This document shows, piece by piece, positions 22,391 to 38,897 of a stretch of 39,270 bases of DNA. Numbering within the stretch: the stretch's first letter is position 1; each line of letters begins with the position of its first letter. A program made the translations under genes and the position numbers. The stretch covers positions 1-39,270 of the forward strand of contig JAJDNG010000084.1 in NCBI GenBank assembly GCA_022340845.1. The letters are read 5' to 3'. This DNA is from Gammaproteobacteria bacterium. Its GTDB lineage: Bacteria > Pseudomonadota > Gammaproteobacteria > SZUA-152. Below the pieces are notes generated by a model. It was not told the DNA's origin and did no database searches. It worked only from the letters and a program-made list of their open reading frames with translations.

Positions 22391-23188
22391 TCAGTTGAGA
22401 CGCCACACTTCGTAACGTTTTTCAATCTGGCGGAAAAACAATCTCTCAAACATCCAGGATACGCCACCTATTAAGACAATGCCCAGTAACACTTGACGGG
22501 AGTTCCCAATTTCCCCTCCCATGGACACCATCCAACCCAATCCCTGGGTCGCACCTATCATCTCCGCAGCGACCAAGGCCCGCCAAGCCTGACTAAAGCC
22601 GATTCGCAGTGCGGCGGTAATAAAAGGCAAACTGGCGGGCAAGTACACATAGAGAAACAACTGTATTTTTTTGGCGCCCAACGCACGGGCCGCACGCACT
22701 TCACTGCCTTGGATGGTCAACACACCTTCCATAATCGTTAAAATCATGGGGTTCACCGCGGAGATGAAAATTACCACGATAATGGTGGTGTAACCTATGC
22801 CAAAAATAATCAACATCAAAGGCGCCCAGGCGATGGGAGGAATAGCCATAAACAGGCCGTTTAAAGGTACAATATATTCCCGGAAACCTTTGTAGAACCC
22901 TGCCATGAATCCGCACACGATAGCCACGACGATCGCCGACCCAAACCCTCCCACCTCTTCCAAAAAACTCGCCCATAAATGGGGAAACAACTCGCCATTA
23001 ATAAACCAGCGATAGCCTTCTTCTGCTACATCCCACACCTGCGGCAGTATGTAGGAAGGAAACTGTGTTGCGATCAGCATCCAGGCCAGTAACAACGACG
23101 GTATGGACAACCACGCCCAGGTAAACTTTGGCAGCTTCAGAGTCGATTTCGAACGTTTCGGTATGGCTTCTCTTCCAATAACACTCAC
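22391..23188 (-). CDS. ABC transporter permease (SsuC/TauC/NrtB type)
   Basis: 265 residues with about six transmembrane segments, such as LSIPSLLLAWMLIATQFPSY and GIVLIGGVSWMFERLFF. The BPD permease contact loop EVRAARALGAKKIQLFLYVYLPASLPFI is clear (EAA-type loop), as in the sulfonate/taurine/nitrate importer family. It would form the inner-membrane channel with the SBP and ATPase encoded just upstream on the same strand. It starts with GTG and follows the SBP stop after 66 bases. The substrate cannot be told from the sequence. Confidence 0.92.
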   Translation of the reverse strand: MSVIGREAIPKRSKSTLKLPKFTWAWLSIPSLLLAWMLIATQFPSYILPQVWDVAEEGYRWFINGELFPHLWASFLEEVGGFGSAIVVAIVCGFMAGFYKGFREYIVPLNGLFMAIPPIAWAPLMLIIFGIGYTTIIVVIFISAVNPMILTIMEGVLTIQGSEVRAARALGAKKIQLFLYVYLPASLPFITAALRIGFSQAWRALVAAEMIGATQGLGWMVSMGGEIGNSRQVLLGIVLIGGVSWMFERLFFRQIEKRYEVWRLN

Positions 23189-23254
23189 AATTATAACCTA
23201 ATGTATTTGCATTTATACTGTAGGCCTGAATCCGGCCCAGCCAATCTGCCGGCT

Positions 23255-24256
23255 CTATTTGCGCAGCGCCACTTCATTGACAAAACTTTTGTCCACCAAC
23301 TCACTGGCCTTAAGCGGCTTGCTGATATAACCCAACGATAACGAATAATCCATCAGGTTTTGAATAAAGTTCATATCTTTTTCGGTTAAGTCCCATTCCC
23401 AACCCAGGCGTTTTCTGGCTTCCGCCACCACTTGCGTGCCACTGATGGTTTCACCGGTGGTTTCATTTTTCACGTTTTCCAGCTTAAAGGCGGCAGCGAT
23501 AATGTCGTTACCGGCATCCGGGCTGGAGTTGAGAAATTCCACCGCCTTCTTATGAGCTGCCAGTACTTTTTTAATGGCCGAACGTTTGTTTTTTAACGCA
23601 TCGGGCATCGCCATCACTACATACCAGGGGTATTTAGGCACTGCTTGGTTCATATCGAAAATCACTTTGGTATCGCCACGCAGTTCAAATTGACTGGTGA
23701 ACGGTTCCCAGATAAAAGCCCCGTCTACCACCTTGGCTTCCACTGAAGGGCCCATATTACCGGAGGGCATGGGCACAATACTGACGTCTTTGTCCGGCTC
23801 CATATGGCCCGCCACACCTAACACGTAGCCTCTTAACAACACATCCATGCCACTGCCTTTTTTTACACCGGCCATCTTTTTGCCTTTGAGCCCCTGCAAG
23901 TCATTAATGCCGGAATCCTTACGTACCATCACCGCCGCTTGGCCGTAATTCACTTTGGCCAGTATGCGGCTTTCCAAACCACGTGAATACCAATGATAAA
24001 CCGGTGGTGAGCCGATATACGCCATGTCCAATTCACCCGCGGCCAATGCCTGATGCACGATGGGCCCGCTGGTAAACGAATGAATTTCAGCATCCAAGCC
24101 CATTTCTTCAAAATAGCCTTTTTCTTTGGCAATGATCACCGGCGCATTAGCCATGGCGTACACCCAACCGATACGGATTTTTTCTTTTTCCGCGTAACAT
24201 GTGCTACTGACTACGGTAACGATGCCAAACAGTACTATAGATATTAAATTTTTCAC
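23255..24256 (-). CDS. ABC transporter substrate-binding protein (NMT1/SsuA type)
   Basis: 333 residues. A signal peptide (about 1-22, ending CYA) is followed by the NMT1/SsuA-like periplasmic binding fold: IRIGWVYAMANAPVIIAKEKGYFEEMGLDAE, then GELDMAYIGSPP and KGKKMAGVKKGSGMD. This family binds sulfonates, nitrate, thiamine precursors and other small organics; the ligand here is unknown. The GTG start has a perfect AGGAGG seven bases upstream and overlaps the ATPase stop codon (GTGA), a sign of translational coupling. Confidence 0.92.
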   Translation of the reverse strand: MKNLISIVLFGIVTVVSSTCYAEKEKIRIGWVYAMANAPVIIAKEKGYFEEMGLDAEIHSFTSGPIVHQALAAGELDMAYIGSPPVYHWYSRGLESRILAKVNYGQAAVMVRKDSGINDLQGLKGKKMAGVKKGSGMDVLLRGYVLGVAGHMEPDKDVSIVPMPSGNMGPSVEAKVVDGAFIWEPFTSQFELRGDTKVIFDMNQAVPKYPWYVVMAMPDALKNKRSAIKKVLAAHKKAVEFLNSSPDAGNDIIAAAFKLENVKNETTGETISGTQVVAEARKRLGWEWDLTEKDMNFIQNLMDYSLSLGYISKPLKASELVDKSFVNEVALRK

Positions 24257-25104
24257 AATGCAGCCTCCTGTAAAAGTCGTGCACTCGGTCCATCATCAAA
24301 ATCATCGTCAGAATTGGGGTTTGTTGTGTTCGCAACCACGGCGATATCGGCAATCAATTCTTTTTTATATTGCCAAAACAGTTCGGAAGTTCGCGTCGTT
24401 GGGCCACTGCGGGGCCTTGGCAGATCGTTGCTAAGATCTCTGAAGATACCGTTGGGGGGGCGGTGTAAAACGACAATCCGGTCGGACAAATAAACCGCTT
24501 CATCGATATCATGGGTAATAAATACTACAGTTTGCCCCAATTCGTCCCATAGGCGCAGTAACTCATCGTTCATGGTTTCCCGGGTAATGGCATCCAGCGC
24601 CCCAAATGGCTCGTCCATGAGCAACAGGCGGGGTTCCATAACCAATGCCCTGGCTAGCGACACACGTTGTTGCATGCCACCGGAAAGGTGTCGCGGCAGG
24701 TAATTTTCAAATCCTTCCAGCCCTACAAGTTGCAGATACCGGGTGGCTTTTTCCCGTCGTTCCAGCGGGCTTAGGTTGCCTTCCATTCGCAGTCCAAATT
24801 CAACATTTTCAACGGTAGTAAGCCAAGGGAATAATGTGGCATGCTGAAATACATAGCCGAAATGGGGATCTTCGGGCGCAATGGGTTTTCCCCTCAGTTT
24901 GATACTACCCTGGCGGGGAAACAAAAATCCGGACAACAAGTTTAGTAGCGTCGTTTTTCCGCATCCGGATGGACCAATGATGGATAAAAACTCGCCGGGT
25001 TGCACATCGATACTCAAACCATCAAATATGGCACCTGCGCCGTAGTTGAAATGAACATCGTCGATAAGAAGGCTGTCACCGCCTATTCGTTCTATATTCG
25101 ACAC
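24253..25104 (-). CDS. ABC transporter ATPase (SsuB/TauB/NrtD type)
   Basis: 283 residues. Walker A GPSGCGKT (about 43-50), Q-loop, signature LSGGMQQRVSLARAL, Walker B LLLMDEPFGALD and the H-loop FITHDIDEA are all intact. It resembles the SsuB/TauB/NrtD ATPases. First gene of the importer operon; GTG start with GGGAG six bases upstream. An inverted repeat at 25239-25254 lies about 140 bases upstream, and a Crp-family regulator gene lies immediately upstream on the same strand. Confidence 0.94.
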   Translation of the reverse strand: MSNIERIGGDSLLIDDVHFNYGAGAIFDGLSIDVQPGEFLSIIGPSGCGKTTLLNLLSGFLFPRQGSIKLRGKPIAPEDPHFGYVFQHATLFPWLTTVENVEFGLRMEGNLSPLERREKATRYLQLVGLEGFENYLPRHLSGGMQQRVSLARALVMEPRLLLMDEPFGALDAITRETMNDELLRLWDELGQTVVFITHDIDEAVYLSDRIVVLHRPPNGIFRDLSNDLPRPRSGPTTRTSELFWQYKKELIADIAVVANTTNPNSDDDFDDGPSARLLQEAAL

Positions 25105-25322: not shown

Positions 25323-26060
25323 TCATGCGGTATTGCGCATAACCTGCACGCGTGGTGCTGGCATCCGCGGATACACCAGTTCACCCGCAATAGATTCGAT
25401 CCAGGGTATGTCTTGCAGATAAATGACGCGTTGTTGCATTTTCAAAACGTTTTTTTTGCGCAGCGCACTTAACACAGTGGTTACGCTTTGCCGGCTAGTG
25501 CCGATCATGTCGGCCATTTCCTGATGCGTCAAAGCAATGTCCAGCAGTATAGCCTCACCTGCCGGCTTTCCATAGCGGCTGCACAACCTTGTCAATAACT
25601 TTATTACTCTGCAAGCGACATCGTCAGATGCAAGATTTAACAGAACGTCGCTCAGTTCTCTTAGCCGGTAACCCAGCAACTCAATGACTTTTAGCGCCAA
25701 TTGAGGATGTTGTTTGATATAGCGCTTGAATTCAATTTTGCTGATGGCCAACACTTCAACCGTGCTACAGGCTTGTGCATTGACATCCCGGCCGCTTTGC
25801 TGAAACACTTCCGACAAACCAAACAATTCACCGGGAAAACAAAACCAAAGAATCACTTCTTTACCTTCTTTGGATAATTCAAACACTTTAACCCGGCCAT
25901 CCGCCAGCAAGAAAACCTCCTCACTGCTCGACCCCACATGAAACACCATTTCATGTTTTTGAAAATAGCGCTTATTGCCCATATGGTACAGAGCTTGACG
26001 ATCTTGCAAACTTAAATTGGAAATAAAATCAATTGGGTGAGAGTCCCAGCTACCTTCCAT
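25323..26060 (-). CDS. Crp/Fnr-family transcriptional regulator
   Basis: 245 residues. An N-terminal cyclic-nucleotide-binding fold (about 30-120; VGSSSEEVFLLADGRVKVFE, FPGELFGLSEVF) is followed by the dimer helix and a winged HTH (LTHQEMADMIGTSRQSVTTVLSAL, about 178-201). There is no N-terminal cysteine cluster, so it is not an oxygen-sensing FNR, and the usual CRP cAMP-binding Arg-Ser pair is not evident; the signal is unknown. It sits between the ABC operon and the divergent DUF3604 gene and may regulate both, since palindromes occur in each promoter region (inference). Confidence 0.9.
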   Translation of the reverse strand: MEGSWDSHPIDFISNLSLQDRQALYHMGNKRYFQKHEMVFHVGSSSEEVFLLADGRVKVFELSKEGKEVILWFCFPGELFGLSEVFQQSGRDVNAQACSTVEVLAISKIEFKRYIKQHPQLALKVIELLGYRLRELSDVLLNLASDDVACRVIKLLTRLCSRYGKPAGEAILLDIALTHQEMADMIGTSRQSVTTVLSALRKKNVLKMQQRVIYLQDIPWIESIAGELVYPRMPAPRVQVMRNTA

Positions 26061-31370: not shown

Positions 31371-32339
31371 ATGACATTGCCAGACATTTATATAAGCAAT
31401 ATCGGATATGCTTTGGGAAATATTCGCCAAACTTTAGAATTCAGTCATGTCAATGGATTGACATACTCCAGCACCGAATTGCTGACCGATTCGGGATTTC
31501 ATTTTCATCATATGTGTAATGCCGCACAGTCTACTTATGACTTGGCCCGGGCCGCGGTTGACAATTTGCTGACCTCAGGCGGGACAGGTTGTGAGAGTAT
31601 CCACGGCATACTCTATGCGACATGCCTCACTTGTAACGGTAACCTGGGCGCCTGGCAGGACTTCAAACAAAGCGGTGATGTTAAACACTTGATGGATTTC
31701 CCAGCCAGCCACTTGCAAGCGGACTTCGGTCTGGAAAACGCGTTTCTTATGGGAATCAACCAGACGGCATGCACCAGTCTACTGAGTACGTTGCGCACCG
31801 CTAAAGCGTTGTTGAGTTCGGAATCGCATCTTGAACAATTACTGTGTTTGACTGCTGACCGGTTCCCGCCAGGCGCCAAATACGAGCAAACCTACAATTT
31901 GATATCCGATGGCGCCGCCGCTTGTGTGGTCAGCCGCCATGGAGGCCGGGTGAAAATTCTGGATGCGCATCACATTAGTAATGGCGTCATGGCCCAAGCC
32001 AGTGACGATGAGACGGCGGGCTTTTATTTTAATTACTCCTACCGCGTAATCGACGAATTATTGAAACGCAATCAGCTCAGTATTAACGACATTGACTGGA
32101 TAGTGCCACAAAACACCAACATAAAAGCCTGGGAAGTACTTTCCAGTATTTTGCGCTTCGACTACCAAAAAGTGTTAACACCTACGCGTGAAGACATCGG
32201 CCACTGCATCAGCGGTGACAATATCATCAACTTGAAACACGCCGACGACAATGGAACCTTCCAGCCAGGCGATAAGATCCTGCTCCCCATGGCCGGGTTT
32301 GGATTGAACTGGTCATGCGTGTTGTTGGAAAAAGTCTAA
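31371..32339 (+). CDS. Beta-ketoacyl-ACP synthase III-like protein, altered catalytic residues
   Basis: 322 residues, the length of FabH. The thiolase fold is visible: the Cys loop GINQTACTSLLS (128-139) with Cys134, LISDGAAACVVSR (177-189), DIDWIVPQNTN (240-250) and EDIGHCISGDNIINL (274-288). In FabH the other two catalytic residues are His (PHQAN) and Asn (GNTSAAS). By eye the His becomes Gln247, while the Asn position is His278, so the triad appears changed. FabH-like proteins of secondary metabolism condense acyl chains or act as acyltransferases. First gene of the nine-gene cluster, followed after 14 bases by the AurF-like gene. Confidence 0.85.
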   Translation: MTLPDIYISNIGYALGNIRQTLEFSHVNGLTYSSTELLTDSGFHFHHMCNAAQSTYDLARAAVDNLLTSGGTGCESIHGILYATCLTCNGNLGAWQDFKQSGDVKHLMDFPASHLQADFGLENAFLMGINQTACTSLLSTLRTAKALLSSESHLEQLLCLTADRFPPGAKYEQTYNLISDGAAACVVSRHGGRVKILDAHHISNGVMAQASDDETAGFYFNYSYRVIDELLKRNQLSINDIDWIVPQNTNIKAWEVLSSILRFDYQKVLTPTREDIGHCISGDNIINLKHADDNGTFQPGDKILLPMAGFGLNWSCVLLEKV

Positions 32340-32353
32340 CTAAAGCACACAAT

Positions 32354-33226
32354 ATGGAAACTGAAATGGAAAACGTCATCGCTCTGTCGCAAAAGCTCAG
32401 TAAAGCCTCGGTCAAACGCTACAGCAATCCGTACCTGGAATTTGATTGGCCGGATTCACTGCCGCAAGACGGTTGGTTTTTCTCGCCGGAGTTATCGTCA
32501 CTTTATGCTACACCGGTATACAACACTTTGTCCGAAGCACAGAAAAAACGCCTGGCCTTTTGGGAGTTAGTGAATTTTTTCAGTCTCAACATTCACGGCG
32601 AAAAAGCCTTATTGCAAGGTCTTTCCCAACGCTTGTATTCGCATTGGCCAGCGGAAATATCCGATTATCTGCATCACTTTCTGGGCGAAGAAAATAAACA
32701 CATGACACTGTTCGGAACGTTTTGCTCTCGTTACGCCAATAAAATCTATCCATCCAAAGCATATTCATTGAAAGAAGAACAAGTGCACAGCGTGGAAGAT
32801 TTTCTATTTTTTGCCCGGGTGGTCATTTTCGAAGAATTCGTCGACTTCTACAATCTTTATATGGCCAAGGACGATCGCCTGCACTCGTTGTGCAGGGCCA
32901 TCAATCAATACCACCATAATGACGAAAGTCGGCACCTGGCGTTTGGCCGTAAAATCACGCAACAATTGTATGCAGCCAACTCTGAGGACTGGGGGCAGGA
33001 CACAATCAACAGCATTCGCCGCTATCTAGGCGATTACATTCAAGCGACCTGGAAAGAGTATTACAACCCCTGGGTATACAAGGATGCCGGCTTGAGTGAC
33101 TACTATGAAACCTATCTCACCGCGTGGCGGCACAAAAACCAGCAACAACTGCGGCATAAAATCAGTGCCCATTGTTTGGAATTTTTTGTCAACAGCGGGA
33201 TATTTGCAGAGGAACCCGTACTATGA
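32354..33226 (+). CDS. AurF-like diiron oxygenase
   Basis: 290 residues from the ATG at 32354; an ATG at 32315 would overlap the preceding gene. The length and residue pattern match the AurF/CmlI family, which N-oxygenates arylamines or hydroxylates carrier-bound substrates with a diiron site. The candidate ligands are Glu83 (NIHGEKALL), Glu113 and His116 (EENKHM), Glu160 (VIFEEF), His187, Glu191 and His194 (HHNDESRH). The spacings 160-187-191-194 equal those of AurF Glu196-His223-Glu227-His230, so all seven ligands appear present. Soluble, no signal peptide. It is translationally coupled (ATGA) to the carrier protein gene, so a carrier-bound substrate is possible. Confidence 0.87.
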   Translation: METEMENVIALSQKLSKASVKRYSNPYLEFDWPDSLPQDGWFFSPELSSLYATPVYNTLSEAQKKRLAFWELVNFFSLNIHGEKALLQGLSQRLYSHWPAEISDYLHHFLGEENKHMTLFGTFCSRYANKIYPSKAYSLKEEQVHSVEDFLFFARVVIFEEFVDFYNLYMAKDDRLHSLCRAINQYHHNDESRHLAFGRKITQQLYAANSEDWGQDTINSIRRYLGDYIQATWKEYYNPWVYKDAGLSDYYETYLTAWRHKNQQQLRHKISAHCLEFFVNSGIFAEEPVL

Positions 33227-33486
33227 GTCAGGAACAAGACATCAAAAACCGCTTAAGCCGTTGGGTGGCGCAACAAAGTTCGGACTATCAGCAAGACTCG
33301 GTGCCTTTTGATTTAGCAATTATCGAGCAGCGAATTATTACTTCCGTGCAAATCATGGAATTGATTCTATTTCTGGAACACTTGCGCGGTGAACCCATCA
33401 ATCCCATGCATATAAAACCCGGCGCATTTTCCAGCATCGATTCCATCTACCAGCACTTTTTTAGCGAAGATCAAGCGTATGCCTGA
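33223..33486 (+). CDS. Carrier protein, probable aminoacyl acceptor
   Basis: 87 residues. The ATG overlaps the AurF-like stop codon (ATGA), so translation is coupled. The second helix entry reads RIITSVQIMELILFLEHLRG (38-57), which fits the ACP phosphopantetheine site with Ser41 in place of the usual DSL Ser. Helices before and after (DIKNRLSRWVAQ, SIDSIYQHFF) fit a four-helix carrier. It has the EQRIITS-vqimELILF pattern I associate with carriers next to amino acid:[carrier protein] ligases, and that ligase gene follows with an 8-base overlap. It is probably loaded with an amino acid instead of a fatty acid. Confidence 0.85.
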   Translation: MSQEQDIKNRLSRWVAQQSSDYQQDSVPFDLAIIEQRIITSVQIMELILFLEHLRGEPINPMHIKPGAFSSIDSIYQHFFSEDQAYA

Positions 33487-34405
33487 ATTGACGAGCACTA
33501 CATTGACGACCACTGAATTAGCGACCATAACGCCTCGCCACACCCACACGCCCGACTGTTGCACGCCTTTGCATACATTCGGACAGACCGCCCTCAATGG
33601 CGCATGGTTGCAAGCTCATCACAGCATCGATGCGGCATTCCTGGCACTGGCCAACCAATTGAATGCGACGGAATATCAATTCCCCAGTTTCATCCACGCG
33701 ACGGACTTGCGCAAAATGGATTATTTGCACTCGTTTCCGCAACACGCAACCTTTCCCCAGGTATTGCAAGCCAGCGATGACAACCTCCAGCACTTTCGCA
33801 GCGGTGAATTGATAAACGAACAAGACGAAATACAACTGGCAAATATGGCAGCACCCAAAGCCATATTAACTCCAGCGGCTTGTTATCACTTTTACATCAA
33901 TTTTCAGAAACAGAATTTCACCCACACTCGGCTATTTACCACCAAGAACAATTGCTACCGCCATGAAACGGAGTATGTCCCATTGGAACGTCAATGGAGT
34001 TTTACCATGCGGGAGATTGTTTGCATTGGCGAAGAAACTGAAGTGCAGCAGTTTGTGAGCGACATGAAGACGCGGTTATCGCGGCTGTTTTCCCGCCTGG
34101 AGATGCCCATTCAATGGCAGACGGCGCAAGATCCTTTTTTCGATCCAGGCAATAATCCCAAACATTTATTGCAAACACTACACCCGAATAAACATGAAAT
34201 GGTGTTCGACGACCGGCTGGCGTTGGGCTCCGCCAACTACCATCGTAGTTATTTTGGCGAGATATTTGATATTCGCTACATGCAATCCAACGCCCATTCG
34301 GCCTGTATTGCTTTTGGTATTGAACGCTGGCTGGCGGCATTTTCTGCGAGCTTTGGTGACAACCCGAGCACCTGGCCGCTGAAATTATTGGAGGGGATAG
34401 AATGA
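33479..34405 (+). CDS. Amino acid:[carrier protein] ligase (SerRS-like)
   Basis: 308 residues, the size of the stand-alone aa:CP ligases, which are truncated atypical seryl-tRNA-synthetase homologues. They activate glycine or alanine (some relatives others) as the adenylate and load the phosphopantetheine arm of a carrier, not a tRNA. Key segments: LTPAACYHFY (130-139), RQWSFTMREIVCIG (171-184, motif 2) and HSACIAFGIERWLAAF (273-288, motif 3). The likely zinc ligands Cys135, Glu179 and Cys276 match Cys131, Glu176 and Cys279 of the Bradyrhizobium enzyme in nature and approximate spacing. No tRNA-binding arm is visible. The ATG overlaps the carrier gene, its probable partner; the stop overlaps the SDR start (ATGA). 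Confidence 0.9.
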   Translation: MPELTSTTLTTTELATITPRHTHTPDCCTPLHTFGQTALNGAWLQAHHSIDAAFLALANQLNATEYQFPSFIHATDLRKMDYLHSFPQHATFPQVLQASDDNLQHFRSGELINEQDEIQLANMAAPKAILTPAACYHFYINFQKQNFTHTRLFTTKNNCYRHETEYVPLERQWSFTMREIVCIGEETEVQQFVSDMKTRLSRLFSRLEMPIQWQTAQDPFFDPGNNPKHLLQTLHPNKHEMVFDDRLALGSANYHRSYFGEIFDIRYMQSNAHSACIAFGIERWLAAFSASFGDNPSTWPLKLLEGIE

Positions 34406-35517
34406 GCGAATCCGTATTGATTACCGGCGCCGATGGCTACTTCGGCAAGCTACTCACGGAAAAATATTTAAGCCACACCGATAACCGCATGCTGTTGTGG
34501 GTTCGTGCGCAAGACCGGACCGAATACGACAGTAAATGCGAGCAACTGCGTAAAACTTACGCTGTGCACAAAAATAGAATTCACTTTCACGGAGGCGACT
34601 TACAAAGTCTTGAACCTTTTTCCACCATCAATCCTTCTGAAGTGAAAGCGATTGTCCACACCGCGGCCATCACCCGTTTTAACGTGGAAGAATCATTGGC
34701 TAATGAAGTCAATCGCGAAGGTACACGCAAAACCGCAATGTTTGCCCATCGCTGCCGCGGACTCGAACAGTTTGCCTTTATCAGTACCATATACAGTTCC
34801 GGTCTGGCGCCCGGTTGTGTATCGGAAACCGCCGTCAGTCCAACCGGTCCGTTTGCCAACCACTATGAACGCAGTAAAAGCGAGGCCGAACACTTGATAC
34901 AAACGCAATTCCCGGATTTGCCGTGGAGCATTTATCGCGCCGCCACTATTATTGCCGATGACGATAGCGGCAAAGTGGTGCAATACAATGTGTTTCACAA
35001 CACCATGCGTTTGTTTTTCCACGGCTTGATTTCACTGCTGCCGGGATACCACACAACGCCCATCTATTTGACCACCGGCCGTTCCACTATTGATTCAATA
35101 TTTGAGATACTTTCCGCGCAACAAACGCAACAAAGCATCTACAACCTGTGTTACGGACGCGACACCGCAATGACCTTGGGCGAACTCATTGATCGAGTAT
35201 TCAACAATTTTGCGCGTGATCCGGACTTCCACAAAAAACGTATCCTTAAACCCTTGTTTACCGATCTGGATGCGTTTGAATCCCTGGCATCGGTTTTAAA
35301 AGGACTCAGTGGCGCCGTCGTAAAACAAGCCCTGGAGAGTATACGGCCGTTCGCCCAGCAACTGTTCATTGAAAAAGATGTCGCCAACCAACAGTTGCTT
35401 TGCGCCACTCCCGGCTACCCGATACCGGATATGCCAGTGTTAATCGATAACGTCATTCAGCACCTCATGCAGACCAAGTGGGGTCGGGAAACCATGCCAG
35501 GGAATCAACGCCAGTGA
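34402..35517 (+). CDS. Extended SDR, thioester-reductase-like
   Basis: 371 residues. N-terminal Rossmann motif TGADGYFG (8-15) for NAD(P)H, the catalytic Ser/Thr region FISTIYSSG (127-134) and YERSK (Tyr155, Lys159). The region AITRFNVEESLANEVNREGT and the Y-motif context resemble the NAD-binding-4 thioester reductase (fatty acyl reductase or NRPS R domain) branch. It could release the carrier-bound intermediate as an aldehyde, or reduce a keto group; the sequence does not decide this. The start overlaps the ligase stop (ATGA). A 124-base gap with short direct repeats (AGTAATGT) separates it from the next gene, so a second promoter is possible there. Confidence 0.85.
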   Translation: MSESVLITGADGYFGKLLTEKYLSHTDNRMLLWVRAQDRTEYDSKCEQLRKTYAVHKNRIHFHGGDLQSLEPFSTINPSEVKAIVHTAAITRFNVEESLANEVNREGTRKTAMFAHRCRGLEQFAFISTIYSSGLAPGCVSETAVSPTGPFANHYERSKSEAEHLIQTQFPDLPWSIYRAATIIADDDSGKVVQYNVFHNTMRLFFHGLISLLPGYHTTPIYLTTGRSTIDSIFEILSAQQTQQSIYNLCYGRDTAMTLGELIDRVFNNFARDPDFHKKRILKPLFTDLDAFESLASVLKGLSGAVVKQALESIRPFAQQLFIEKDVANQQLLCATPGYPIPDMPVLIDNVIQHLMQTKWGRETMPGNQRQ

Positions 35518-35641
35518 AAGAACGCCAGGTAAACATTGCGAGCAACCAACCTTTGCGTAAACAAGGTCACTAGTAATGTAAATAGTAATGTGAATATCAG
35601 AAAAAATCAGGACACTCTATAACGACATAAGGATTTTTATT

Positions 35642-36211
35642 ATGGATGGCATCAAAGAACAAGAACGCTGGATAATGAGTTTATACCGTTATTCAGAAAT
35701 AACCGGCGCCATGTTTTTCGCAAAAGTGGCCGCTTGCATGCCGGCTGGACCAATACAGGTTAATTTAAACAAACATTTTGCCGATGAAAGCATGCACAGC
35801 TGGTACTGGACCCAAGCCATGGATGAGCTGGGTTACAAACCCATTCGACTTGCCAATGCTTATCAAGATGCGTATCTGGATGCCGGTGGCCTACCCGTCA
35901 ACATAATGGAAATTCTGGCTTTAACCAATGTGTTCGAAAAACGGGTGATTAAGCAATACGCCCATCACATGAAAATCCCCAACTTGAATCCGATCATCAA
36001 ACAGACCATCGAAAAAATCGTCGAAGACGAAAAATGGCATGTGTACTGGATCAACCAGGCGCTAAAAACCTATGCCCAAAAATACGGCGAAGACAAAGTT
36101 AACAAGAAGATTCAACACTACAAAGCCGCCGATGAATCGATTTACCAGCAATTTTTGCAGGAACACAAAGAAAGACTTGATTATGTTTTTGAGTCAACCG
36201 TATTCGCTTAA
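35642..36211 (+). CDS. Ferritin-like diiron protein, putative oxygenase
   Basis: 189 residues with AAGGA before the ATG. Four helices carry the ligand pattern of a ferritin-like diiron site: Glu19 (SEITGAM), Glu49 and His52 (ADESMHSW), Glu99 (NVFEKR) and Glu130 and His133 (EDEKWHVYW). This is the E...ExxH...E...ExxH pattern, different from the AurF ligand set, so the cluster has two distinct diiron enzymes. It may oxidise an acyl or aminoacyl chain; it could also be an unrelated iron protein. The gene follows the SDR gene after 124 bases and precedes the second ACP after 35 bases. Confidence 0.8.
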   Translation: MDGIKEQERWIMSLYRYSEITGAMFFAKVAACMPAGPIQVNLNKHFADESMHSWYWTQAMDELGYKPIRLANAYQDAYLDAGGLPVNIMEILALTNVFEKRVIKQYAHHMKIPNLNPIIKQTIEKIVEDEKWHVYWINQALKTYAQKYGEDKVNKKIQHYKAADESIYQQFLQEHKERLDYVFESTVFA

Positions 36212-36246
36212 CTTTTTTGTATCCAATAAATAAGGATGAACCAAAA

Positions 36247-36489
36247 ATGCAACCACAAGACATTAAAAACCAACTAGCGGAATTCACCAAAATTCCAGTT
36301 GAGCGTATTGATGATGACGCGGCAATAACTGACCTGGTATCCGATTCGTTTATGCTGGTCGAAATGTTACTTCTATTGCAGGATCACTTTGCCATAGAAC
36401 TGGAACAGGAAGATTTGGAAGAGGTGATCAGCGTCGCTCAACTGGTGAATCTGATAGACGAAAAAATCACCGCAATGCAAACCGCGTGA
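36247..36489 (+). CDS. Acyl carrier protein, second of the cluster
   Basis: 80 residues from the ATG at 36247 (AAGGA upstream); an in-frame ATG at 36217 would add ten. The phosphopantetheine motif is LVSDSFMLVEM with Ser34 in DSF, and the helix pattern (QDHFAIELEQEDLEEVISVAQ) is that of an ACP. It differs from the first carrier and is the likely partner of the fatty acyl-AMP ligase two genes further on. Acidic, soluble. Confidence 0.9.
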   Translation: MQPQDIKNQLAEFTKIPVERIDDDAAITDLVSDSFMLVEMLLLLQDHFAIELEQEDLEEVISVAQLVNLIDEKITAMQTA

Positions 36490-36535
36490 TGGCATCCACC
36501 CATCAACAATACAGACAAACCAAAGGTAATCACTC

Positions 36536-37150
36536 ATGGAAAAATCGGCTTTAATCCTGTTAACCGTAAACTTTATGTTGGTAGCCTTGCTACCGGTAAT
36601 ATTCTTTCGCCGTGATGGCAAACTGACTCTGATGTGGTTGCTTACCGCGGCGCCCTGGGGCATTGCGCCGGCACTGTTCATCAGCCAATATTTTGGTATT
36701 TTGGAACACCCCATGGTGATTGCAGACAGTGTTTTTTATACATGGATGTCTTCCATCGGATCAGTGCTAAGCGCTATTTCCATTGGATTGATCGCCATGA
36801 CCATGGGCAGCCATAGAATTCCGCTGGCTTTGTGGCATCAAAACCCGCAGGATGATGCTCCCTCAACCATCGTCACCTGGGGGAGTTACAAATATATTCG
36901 CCATCCGTTTTACACGGCGTTCATATTGGCTTTCACTGCTTGTATATTGATTGCGCCGCATTGGTCAATTTTGATATTGGGCATATACACCATGGTAATG
37001 TTGAATCATACGGCAAGCAAAGAAGAGCGTCGCCTGTGTAATGAAGAAGGACAATTCGGCCAGGAGTATCGGGAATATATGAAACATACCGGCCGATTTT
37101 TTCCGAAGTTCACAGCTCGCCGTGGCGCCTTGCAAACACAATCCAACTAA
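36536..37150 (+). CDS. ICMT/PEMT-like membrane methyltransferase
   Basis: 204 residues with four to five hydrophobic segments (about 5-24, 32-52, 66-90, 125-157). The C-terminal part carries the isoprenylcysteine carboxyl methyltransferase / phospholipid methyltransferase signature: WGSYKYIRHPFYTAFILAF (115-133) and SKEERRL with FGQEYREYMKHTGRFFP (161-190). The RHP and EE/GEEY-type elements bind S-adenosylmethionine in this superfamily. It would act in the inner membrane on a lipid, carboxyl or amine group. In the cluster it could methylate a lipophilic intermediate or the final product; some relatives are not methyltransferases. It ends 16 bases before the fatty acyl-AMP ligase. Confidence 0.82.
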   Translation: MEKSALILLTVNFMLVALLPVIFFRRDGKLTLMWLLTAAPWGIAPALFISQYFGILEHPMVIADSVFYTWMSSIGSVLSAISIGLIAMTMGSHRIPLALWHQNPQDDAPSTIVTWGSYKYIRHPFYTAFILAFTACILIAPHWSILILGIYTMVMLNHTASKEERRLCNEEGQFGQEYREYMKHTGRFFPKFTARRGALQTQSN

Positions 37151-37166
37151 CCGGACGTGCACTATC

Positions 37167-38897
37167 ATGACCACTGCTCATTTGACCACTTTAGTGGATC
37201 TGGCTATGCACCGGGCGGCCGAACAATCCGCATCAACCGCTTTTACGCAACTGAACCCCGGTGGCGAAATAGAACGTCATATCACTTTTGCACACCTGGA
37301 TCTTGCGGCCAGGAATCTGGCTGGTTATCTGCAAAATCGCTTGCCGCCCCGCTCCAGAGTGTTATTGGCCTATCCCAACGGAATAGATTTTATTATCGGC
37401 TTTTTTGCCTGTTTATACGCCGGCATGATCGCCGTACCGGTTTACCCGCCGTTTGCGCGCAGCCAATGGCCGCGGTTTGCCGCTATTGCCAGTGATTGCC
37501 AGGCAGCCATGATTTGCACGTTGCACAAACATAGCGCCGCGATTTCTAATGTCTGCGTGCAAACACACGCCTTGAGCGACGTACCGTGCATAGCCAGCGA
37601 TGGGTTAAACTCACGGTATCATGAATCCTGGAAATATCCGGATATCAAAGCAGATTCACTGGCGTTTCTGCAATACACATCTGGCACCACCGGAGACCCC
37701 AAAGGCGTGATGGTAAGCCATGAAAATATCATGGTAAATCAAGCCATGATTACCCAAGCATTTAATCACTCACACGAAAGTAAAATTCTTGGCTGGCTAC
37801 CCATGTTTCACGACATGGGGCTCATCGGTAATGTGCTAAACCCGTTTTATGTGGGCGTTGAGTCAATATTAATGGAGCCGTTGTCATTTTTAAGGCAACC
37901 CTATCGCTGGTTAAAAGCCATTTCGGATTTCAAGGCAACCACCAGTGGCGCACCTAATTTCGCATACGATTTGTGTGTCAGCAAAATCAGCTCGGAACAC
38001 AAACAAGGGCTGGACTTACGTCATTGGCAAAATGCCTTTAACGGCTCGGAGAAAGTACACTATCAAACTCTGGAAAAGTTCAGTGAATATTTTGCAGATT
38101 GCGGTTTTCAAAAAAATGCTTTTTTACCGTGTTATGGCATGGCGGAAGCGACCTTGTTCGTTACGGGCAAGCAATCGCAATCCCCTGTGATCACCGCGAA
38201 CGTGGATAAAAACGCGTTGCAGTACAACCAAGTCGTTCCATCCAATACAGTTAAAACCAGGCAATGCACATTAACGGGTTGCGGTGGGGTTTCGGGCCCA
38301 GACATTCGACTCATGAACCCTGATACGCTTGAAGCTTGCGGGTCCGATGAAATCGGTGAAATCTGGATCACGGGAAAACATATCACCCAGGGTTACTGGA
38401 ACAAAAGTCAGCTAACTGCAGATGCATTCAAGCAGGATGAGCATTCCGGCAATAAACACCGATATTTTAGAACCGGAGATCTGGGCGTAATTATCCGCGG
38501 ACAACTGTATATCACCGGCCGTATAAAGGAACTGATTATTGTTCGCGGAAAAAATTACTATCCACAGGATATTGAACTGGTGGCACAAAATAGCAATCCC
38601 GCTTGCCGCCTAGGCCGCGGCGCGGCGTTTAGCGTCGAGTCCGACACTCAGGAGATGGTTGTATTGGTTCAGGAGATTGAAAAAACCCAATTGCGCAAGT
38701 TTGATGACCAAGGCACAAAATGCGATATTCAACTCGCCTTAAGGGCACAACTCAATCTTGAAGTCGATGACATTGTGTTTGTTAAACCAGCCAGTATCCC
38801 GCTGACTTCCAGTGGCAAGACACAAAGGCAACGCGTGAAAGAACTGTACTTGCAACGAGCGATACCGGGGGTAATCCGTTCAATGCTGGCAGCTTGA
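37167..38897 (+). CDS. Fatty acyl-AMP ligase (FAAL)
   Basis: 576 residues from the ATG at 37167 (an in-frame codon at 37122 would overlap the preceding gene). An ANL-superfamily enzyme that activates a fatty acid as acyl-AMP and hands it to an ACP. Motifs: LQYTSGTTGDPKGVMVSH (168-185) for ATP, WLPMFHDMGLIGNVL, typical of FAALs, and C-terminal GRIKELIIVRGKNYYPQDIE and TSSGKTQRQR (catalytic Lys). WLPxxHDMGLIG is a hallmark of the FAAL branch, not acyl-CoA synthetases. The FAAL-specific insertion was not verified by eye. Probable partner: the ACP at 36247. Last gene of the cluster. Confidence 0.92.
   Translation: MTTAHLTTLVDLAMHRAAEQSASTAFTQLNPGGEIERHITFAHLDLAARNLAGYLQNRLPPRSRVLLAYPNGIDFIIGFFACLYAGMIAVPVYPPFARSQWPRFAAIASDCQAAMICTLHKHSAAISNVCVQTHALSDVPCIASDGLNSRYHESWKYPDIKADSLAFLQYTSGTTGDPKGVMVSHENIMVNQAMITQAFNHSHESKILGWLPMFHDMGLIGNVLNPFYVGVESILMEPLSFLRQPYRWLKAISDFKATTSGAPNFAYDLCVSKISSEHKQGLDLRHWQNAFNGSEKVHYQTLEKFSEYFADCGFQKNAFLPCYGMAEATLFVTGKQSQSPVITANVDKNALQYNQVVPSNTVKTRQCTLTGCGGVSGPDIRLMNPDTLEACGSDEIGEIWITGKHITQGYWNKSQLTADAFKQDEHSGNKHRYFRTGDLGVIIRGQLYITGRIKELIIVRGKNYYPQDIELVAQNSNPACRLGRGAAFSVESDTQEMVVLVQEIEKTQLRKFDDQGTKCDIQLALRAQLNLEVDDIVFVKPASIPLTSSGKTQRQRVKELYLQRAIPGVIRSMLAA

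Follow-up and report, generated by a model that had tools for sequence, protein, structure and literature searches.

A conserved nine-gene cluster with an altered KASIII-like enzyme: a candidate route to N-oxygenated lipids

What might nine tightly packed bacterial genes make together when they encode loaders for an amino acid and for a fatty acid, two carriers and two ferritin-like diiron proteins? The question is raised by contig JAJDNG010000084.1 (assembly GCA_022340845.1), whose full 39,270 nucleotides are the stretch of DNA analysed here (the window) and which belongs to a 3.84 Mb metagenome-assembled genome (MAG) of a gammaproteobacterium (SZUA-152). Between positions 31371 and 38897 the forward strand encodes, in this order, a ketoacyl synthase III (KASIII)-like enzyme, an AurF-type oxygenase, a first carrier protein (CP1), an amino acid:carrier protein ligase, a short-chain dehydrogenase/reductase (SDR), a ferritin-like diiron protein, a second, acyl carrier protein (ACP2), an ICMT-like methyltransferase and a fatty acyl-AMP ligase (FAAL). 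Our favoured answer, to which we attach a probability of about 0.55, is that this cluster uses two free-standing carriers to build a small amino acid and a fatty acid into an N-oxygenated, lipid-like molecule.

A check of the open reading frames (ORFs) in the window bore out the nine co-directional genes, with the positions and overlaps reported in a preliminary description drawn from the sequence. ATGA overlaps join the AurF-type gene to CP1 (at 33223) and the ligase to the SDR (at 34402), CP1 and the ligase share 8 bases at 33479, and a gap of 124 bases separates the SDR from the ferritin-like gene. Start contexts point to likely starts at 32354 for the AurF-type gene, which leaves 14 bases after the KASIII, and at 33223, 36247 and 37167 for CP1, ACP2 and the FAAL. 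The contig ends 373 bases past the FAAL gene, so downstream genes may be missing. The family assignments also hold: seven are backed by Pfam and NCBIfam, and the other two, CP1 and the ferritin-like protein, which have no Pfam match above threshold, by invariant residues and, for the latter, by predicted fold.

That the genes form a functional unit is supported by conservation of their arrangement across distant lineages. A scan of relatives, limited to one genome per species, returned 80 loci; among the first 33, the order KASIII-AurF-carrier-ligase-SDR is kept in 32 where the contig is long enough, L042 being truncated and L030 rearranged with some genes on the opposite strand. This core order is found in about 30 genomes labelled as eight phyla (Pseudomonadota, Nitrospirota, Omnitrophota, Myxococcota, Acidobacteriota, Melainabacteria, Fidelibacterota (Marinimicrobia) and Actinomycetota), which is far beyond chance, and the cluster is therefore not a chance neighbourhood. 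The preliminary description had proposed that the genes belong together and had singled out their arrangement in relatives as the test; the order proved to be conserved, not scattered. All nine genes occur in the same order in a gammaproteobacterial MAG (G010, JAKEGK010000007; 65-90% identity) and in a complete gammaproteobacterial genome (G125; 52-70% identity), the latter with a phosphopantetheinyl transferase (PPTase) gene between the SDR and ferritin-like genes and genes for an MMPL exporter and a LolA-like protein after the FAAL. G010 is the one other MAG, among 23 relatives from the same taxonomic order, that has the ligase, at 76% identity. Around the core lie, in varying combinations, the ferritin-like gene, ACP2, an Sfp-type PPTase (PF01648), an ICMT or DUF3419 gene and an acyl ligase, and relatives of the last four window genes adjoin the core in about 25 loci from eight phyla, in varied arrangements. 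Among 369 class-level genomes the KASIII turned up solely in the source genome and G125, and it occurs in one of 61 genomes sampled from the genus of G125. Because presence is sporadic while the order is conserved, horizontal transfer of the cluster is suggested. Viral contigs yielded no relative. In the Obscuribacterales a tetratricopeptide-like gene is inserted between ligase and SDR (L018:9401-10426 and the equivalent place in L019).

The enzyme that heads the cluster (31371..32339; PF08541/PF08545) has an active site that had escaped the preliminary description. Cys134, Gln247-Asn248 and His278 are present in 32 of 32 KASIII relatives, and alignment to solved FabH proteins places Gln at the FabH His and His at the FabH Asn, such that the Cys/His/Asn triad of FabH is here Cys/Gln/His. 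The AlphaFold2 (AF2) model has the FabH fold (pLDDT 92.9), and its fold matches include the KASIII-fold acyltransferases ChlB3 and DpsC. These proteins thus constitute a distinct KASIII subfamily with a new type of active site, in which the fold and the catalytic Cys are kept and the FabH triad is not. The window enzyme is not the housekeeping FabH, because the host has its own canonical one (contig C198, beside plsX and fabD) with Cys/His/Asn and the motifs VPHQAN and HGNTSAAS.

The amino acid arm comprises the ligase, CP1 and the AurF-type enzyme. The ligase (33479..34405; PF00587; 308 amino acids) has the catalytic core of a class II aminoacyl-tRNA synthetase (aaRS) without the tRNA-binding domain; residues 55-304 align with the Bradyrhizobium enzyme Bll0957 (3mey; phmmer E 5.4e-20). 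Its Cys135, Glu179 and Cys276, invariant in 34 of 34 sequences, align with the region of the Cys/Glu/Cys metal (Zn) site of Bll0957, and by alignment its pocket motifs also resemble those of Bll0957. The best NCBIfam match is PRK07080 (amino acid--[ACP] ligase), at 132.8 bits against an equivalog cut-off of 357, which marks the ligase as a distant relative and not an equivalog. A ligase resembling it is reported to be Gly-specific, and by analogy glycine is the most likely amino acid. The gammaproteobacterial MAG G010 (L004/L009) also has a second, distant paralogue of the ligase (27% identity) elsewhere in its genome. CP1 (33223..33486) is taken as the carrier because Ser41, the predicted phosphopantetheine site, is invariant (25 of 25) and because it lies between AurF and ligase wherever it is detected; actinobacterial CP1 often fell under the tblastn threshold although the ORF is present.

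The AurF-type enzyme (32354..33226) matches PF11583 with 139.7 bits (cut-off 29.6). Its six diiron ligands and a seventh His (H186 in 289-residue numbering, within HxxxExxH) are invariant in 82 AurF-like sequences, save for a single E160Q. This seventh His is characteristic of ferritin-like diiron oxygenase (FDO) N-oxygenases (PMC13061610), and the AurF-type enzymes PvfB and HamC act on carrier-bound aliphatic amino acids (PMC11659414). N-oxidation is the favoured role of the window enzyme, since the seventh His is invariant and since sister cassettes carry a gene of the nitronate monooxygenase (NMO) family; what had been put forward as an oxidation possibly at N is sharpened accordingly to a preferred, though still predicted, function.

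Sister cassettes (L005, L043-L089, L090) have AurF, carrier and ligase without the KASIII. In about 30 of them, widespread actinobacterial cassettes, an NMO-family gene (PF03060) follows the ligase, usually accompanied by an alpha/beta hydrolase, a second small carrier and a conserved upstream protein of 309-363 amino acids; L005:11888-16926 and the locus of Streptomyces scabiei 87.22 (L083) are examples, and in an Agrobacterium locus AurF and NMO are adjacent. The upstream protein has no Pfam match, and a likeness to transglutaminases seen by eye was left unused. An NMO query found no match in the KASIII-type loci, and in the AurF tree a supported group (99/94) unites the 32 KASIII-type sequences with L020 and leaves out the other cassettes. 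Work by He and Ryan in 2021 reportedly dealt with cassettes for enteromycin carboxamide and for denitrification, with glycine nitronate formed on a carrier. A later paper that cites this work describes how a diiron oxygenase oxidises carrier-bound glycine at N and so forms a nitronate, which is then O-methylated or denitrified (PMC9967187), and another lists nitronate among FDO products (PMC12154687, also citing He and Ryan 2021). Because NMO occurs in the sister cassettes only and the glycine-nitronate chemistry is published, we read KASIII and NMO as two different ways of using one kind of N-oxygenated thioester on a carrier. Two further loci have the trio in other settings: in Streptomyces sp. 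NBC_00335 (L006:3582-15586) it stands beside type II polyketide synthase (PKS) genes, pabB and two PPTases, and in Polyangium (L020:7819-18798) it is followed by a FAAL/nonribosomal peptide synthetase (NRPS) assembly line in place of the KASIII. CylC-type, NMO-containing cyanobacterial clusters were set aside as their gene sets differ.

The remaining proteins suggest reduction, a lipid arm and alkylation. The SDR (34402..35517) is an extended one of the thioester-reductase (NAD_binding_4) type (PF07993, 98.5 bits), whose Gly-rich motif, Tyr155 and Lys159 are conserved in 31-32 of 32 sequences. The small ferritin-like protein (35642..36211), for which no Pfam match was found, is read as a diiron protein because E19, E49, H52, E99, E130 and H133 (E-ExxH-E-ExxH) are invariant in 27 of 27 sequences and because of its predicted fold (AF2 model, pLDDT 92.4), to which ADO, PaaA/PaaC and MiaE come nearest, though weakly, in Foldseek (E 4e-3 and above). 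At family level its relatives match variously rubrerythrin, DUF455, AurF and COQ7, with no ADO among the hits; an ADO-type alkane route using the SDR and this protein was set aside, as the likeness to ADO is in fold only and the SDR persists without the ferritin-like gene. Ser34 of ACP2 (36247..36489; PF00550) is invariant (26 of 26), as are the RHP and EE motifs of the ICMT-like membrane methyltransferase (36536..37150; PF04140; 23 of 23). The acyl ligase (37167..38897), predicted to load ACP2, matches PF00501 and PF23024 above cut-off, and its best NCBIfam models, below cut-off, are FAALs.

Every KASIII-type locus that is long enough has either ICMT (23 including the window) or DUF3419 (seven: L013, L021, L032, L033, L036, L039 and L041) and never both (Fisher p about 5e-7, ignoring relatedness). 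BtaA, a member of the DUF3419 family, transfers a 3-amino-3-carboxypropyl group from S-adenosylmethionine (SAM) to lipid, and as ICMT and DUF3419 replace each other they are suggested to alkylate the same lipid-like intermediate. An MMPL-type exporter lies beside about ten loci, joined in G125 by the LolA-like gene mentioned above. Besides an MMPL exporter, the KASIII-type cluster of Mycobacterium simulans (L031) has a condensation-domain protein, and it resembles mycobacterial lipid export loci.

Taken together, these features would fit the following pathway. The ligase would load the amino acid, most likely glycine, onto CP1, and the AurF-type enzyme would oxidise its nitrogen there to the hydroxylamine, oxime or nitro/nitronate level. 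The FAAL would put a fatty acid on ACP2, and its chain is probably modified by the ferritin-like protein while it sits there. Cys134 of the KASIII-like enzyme would accept the fatty acyl group, which this enzyme would link to the N-oxygenated moiety held by CP1. The SDR may then reduce the thioester or ketone of the joined species, alkylation of the product with SAM may fall to the ICMT-like enzyme, and the exporter that adjoins the cluster in relatives may move it out. The preliminary description had likewise envisaged a route free of NRPS and PKS modules, from an amino acid and a fatty acid, with oxidation at N and perhaps a reductive step; as a single pathway this stands, with amino acid, joining chemistry and product still to be regarded as predictions. 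Several points weigh against it. We know of no product or enzyme activity for any member of the cluster; the choice of glycine, which is predicted, depends on resemblance to a ligase reported as Gly-specific and on cassette precedent; NMO-family enzymes include non-denitrifying flavoproteins; and the acyl ligase of most relatives is just 22-31% identical to the FAAL of the window. Four of the DUF3419 loci, moreover, consist of the five-gene core and DUF3419 only, and therefore the core chemistry does not depend on the ferritin-like protein, ACP2 and acyl ligase.

How the two arms are joined is where the alternatives diverge. A specific form of the favoured pathway, tentative and with the odds against it, has glycyl-CP1 converted by the AurF-type enzyme to nitroacetyl-CP1, which the Cys/Gln/His KASIII would condense with a fatty acyl group without decarboxylation, to give 2-nitro-3-oxoacyl-CP1 for reduction by the SDR. 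The alpha carbon of nitroacetyl thioesters is acidic; decarboxylation would therefore be unnecessary for the condensing enzyme, and the CH2 of nitroacetyl-CP1 could act as a surrogate for malonyl-ACP. FabH uses its His/Asn pair for decarboxylative condensation; that the pair is replaced in 32 of 32 sequences, with the Cys kept, is consistent with such a nitro-Claisen reaction and is no proof of it; the KASIII is also exclusive to these clusters in the sampled genomes, and NMO is absent exactly where KASIII is present. The oxidation level is, however, only deduced, altered triads are also found in KASIII enzymes that transfer acyl groups without making a C-C bond, and we know of no characterised KASIII with a nitro nucleophile. 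That this condensation, with nitroacetyl-S-CP1 in place of malonyl-ACP, is the origin of a widespread class of lipids with nitro, oxime or nitronate heads is a shade more doubtful again. The main rival to C-C joining, which we consider rather unlikely, is N-acylation: the AurF-type enzyme would form an N-hydroxy-aminoacyl-CP1, the KASIII would act as N-acyltransferase, and the N-acyl-N-hydroxy amino acid would be reductively released and O-methylated to a lipothrenin-like metallophore. The lipothrenin cluster unites a FAAL, an ACP, a KASIII and an AurF-type N-oxygenase in making an N-hydroxylated acyl amino acid (PMC10616846), and ChlB3 and DpsC, the fold matches named above, are acyltransferases; but hydroxylation of lipothrenin is proposed to follow amide formation, no amino acid:carrier protein ligase takes part there (PMC10616846), and the NMO of the sister cassettes points past the hydroxylamine level.

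Two further readings detach the lipid genes from the amino acid chemistry. Ligase, CP1 and SDR could correspond to the adenylation (A), thiolation (T) and reductase (R) domains of an NRPS of the PvfC/HamD type, the AurF-type enzyme then standing for PvfB/HamC; an N-oxygenated amino aldehyde would be released, and the lipid genes would modify it separately. Valine bound to HamD is indeed oxidised by the AurF-type HamC, and a reductase domain stands at the end of HamD (PMC11659414); the SDR is of the thioester-reductase type. This reading is nevertheless improbable, for it leaves unexplained the invariant KASIII that heads every cluster, and neither a cupin nor a PvfD-like gene is among the nine. 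Least probable of all is that an amino acid operon of the first five genes and a lipid operon of the last four are merely neighbours, as the 124-base gap between them and the four core-only loci might suggest, given that relatives of the latter four genes adjoin the core in so many loci and in all eight phyla. The hydrazone route of azaserine, triacsin and Dob was set aside, the lysine-glycine hydrazine genes not being among the nine.

Elsewhere in the window, translations indicate an ABC transporter whose substrate-binding protein is of the nitrate/taurine type (22391-25104) and, downstream of it, a Crp/Fnr-like regulator gene (25323-26060).

The label of an unrecognised cluster type can be kept for the whole set and has to be given up for the trio of ligase, carrier and AurF: glycine-nitronate chemistry is published, and the amino acid arm is a variation on a known kind. 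In a search of open papers (subscription papers, MIBiG and antiSMASH lying outside it), no description was found of the whole gene set, the Cys/Gln/His KASIII subfamily or its eight-phylum spread, nor, in the open papers, a characterised pathway of this gene set in which such a ligase has an AurF partner. If the favoured pathway is correct, it represents a widespread, conserved route to N-oxygenated lipids via enzymes with one function each, in which an aaRS-derived ligase loads the amino acid and the KASIII has had its machinery for decarboxylation replaced; non-decarboxylative condensation with a nitro nucleophile, if true, would be a new kind of C-C bond formation for thiolase-fold enzymes. 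The pathway can be tested, since the cluster's spread over eight phyla takes in a mycobacterium as well as genomes that are complete and cultivable.

Comparison with known systems shows how the window recombines familiar parts. With Bll0957 and its carrier (3mey, 4h2s) it shares the ligase core and the Cys/Glu/Cys metal site; we know of no AurF or KASIII partner for the solved enzyme. FabH-type KASIII enzymes share the fold and catalytic Cys, and their His/Asn is Gln/His in all window-type members. Alb2 of althiomycin biosynthesis is an AurF-type enzyme proposed to form an oxime from a carrier-bound amine, but in a hybrid NRPS-PKS assembly line (PMC3445576). The pvf/ham systems (PvfB-PvfC, HamC-HamD) have in common with the window the AurF-type oxidation of a carrier-bound amino acid and a reductase, yet use a fused A-T-R NRPS where the window has separate proteins, and pvf has no fatty acid arm. 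The lipothrenin (lit) cluster shares FAAL, ACP, KASIII, AurF-type N-oxygenase and the joining of an amino acid to a fatty acid; its ThiF-like adenylyltransferase, GMC oxidoreductase and acyl-CoA dehydrogenase are absent from the nine proteins of the window, which in turn has the amino acid:carrier protein ligase, thioester reductase and ICMT that lit lacks (PMC10616846). The glycine-nitronate cassettes, finally, likewise activate a carrier-bound amino acid and oxidise it at N with an AurF-type diiron oxygenase, with a SAM methyltransferase nearby. Relative to these cassettes, the cluster has an aaRS-like loader, an ICMT-like enzyme as its only methyltransferase in place of a class I O-methyltransferase, and no NMO, and it adds a KASIII, an SDR, a second diiron protein, ACP2 and a FAAL.

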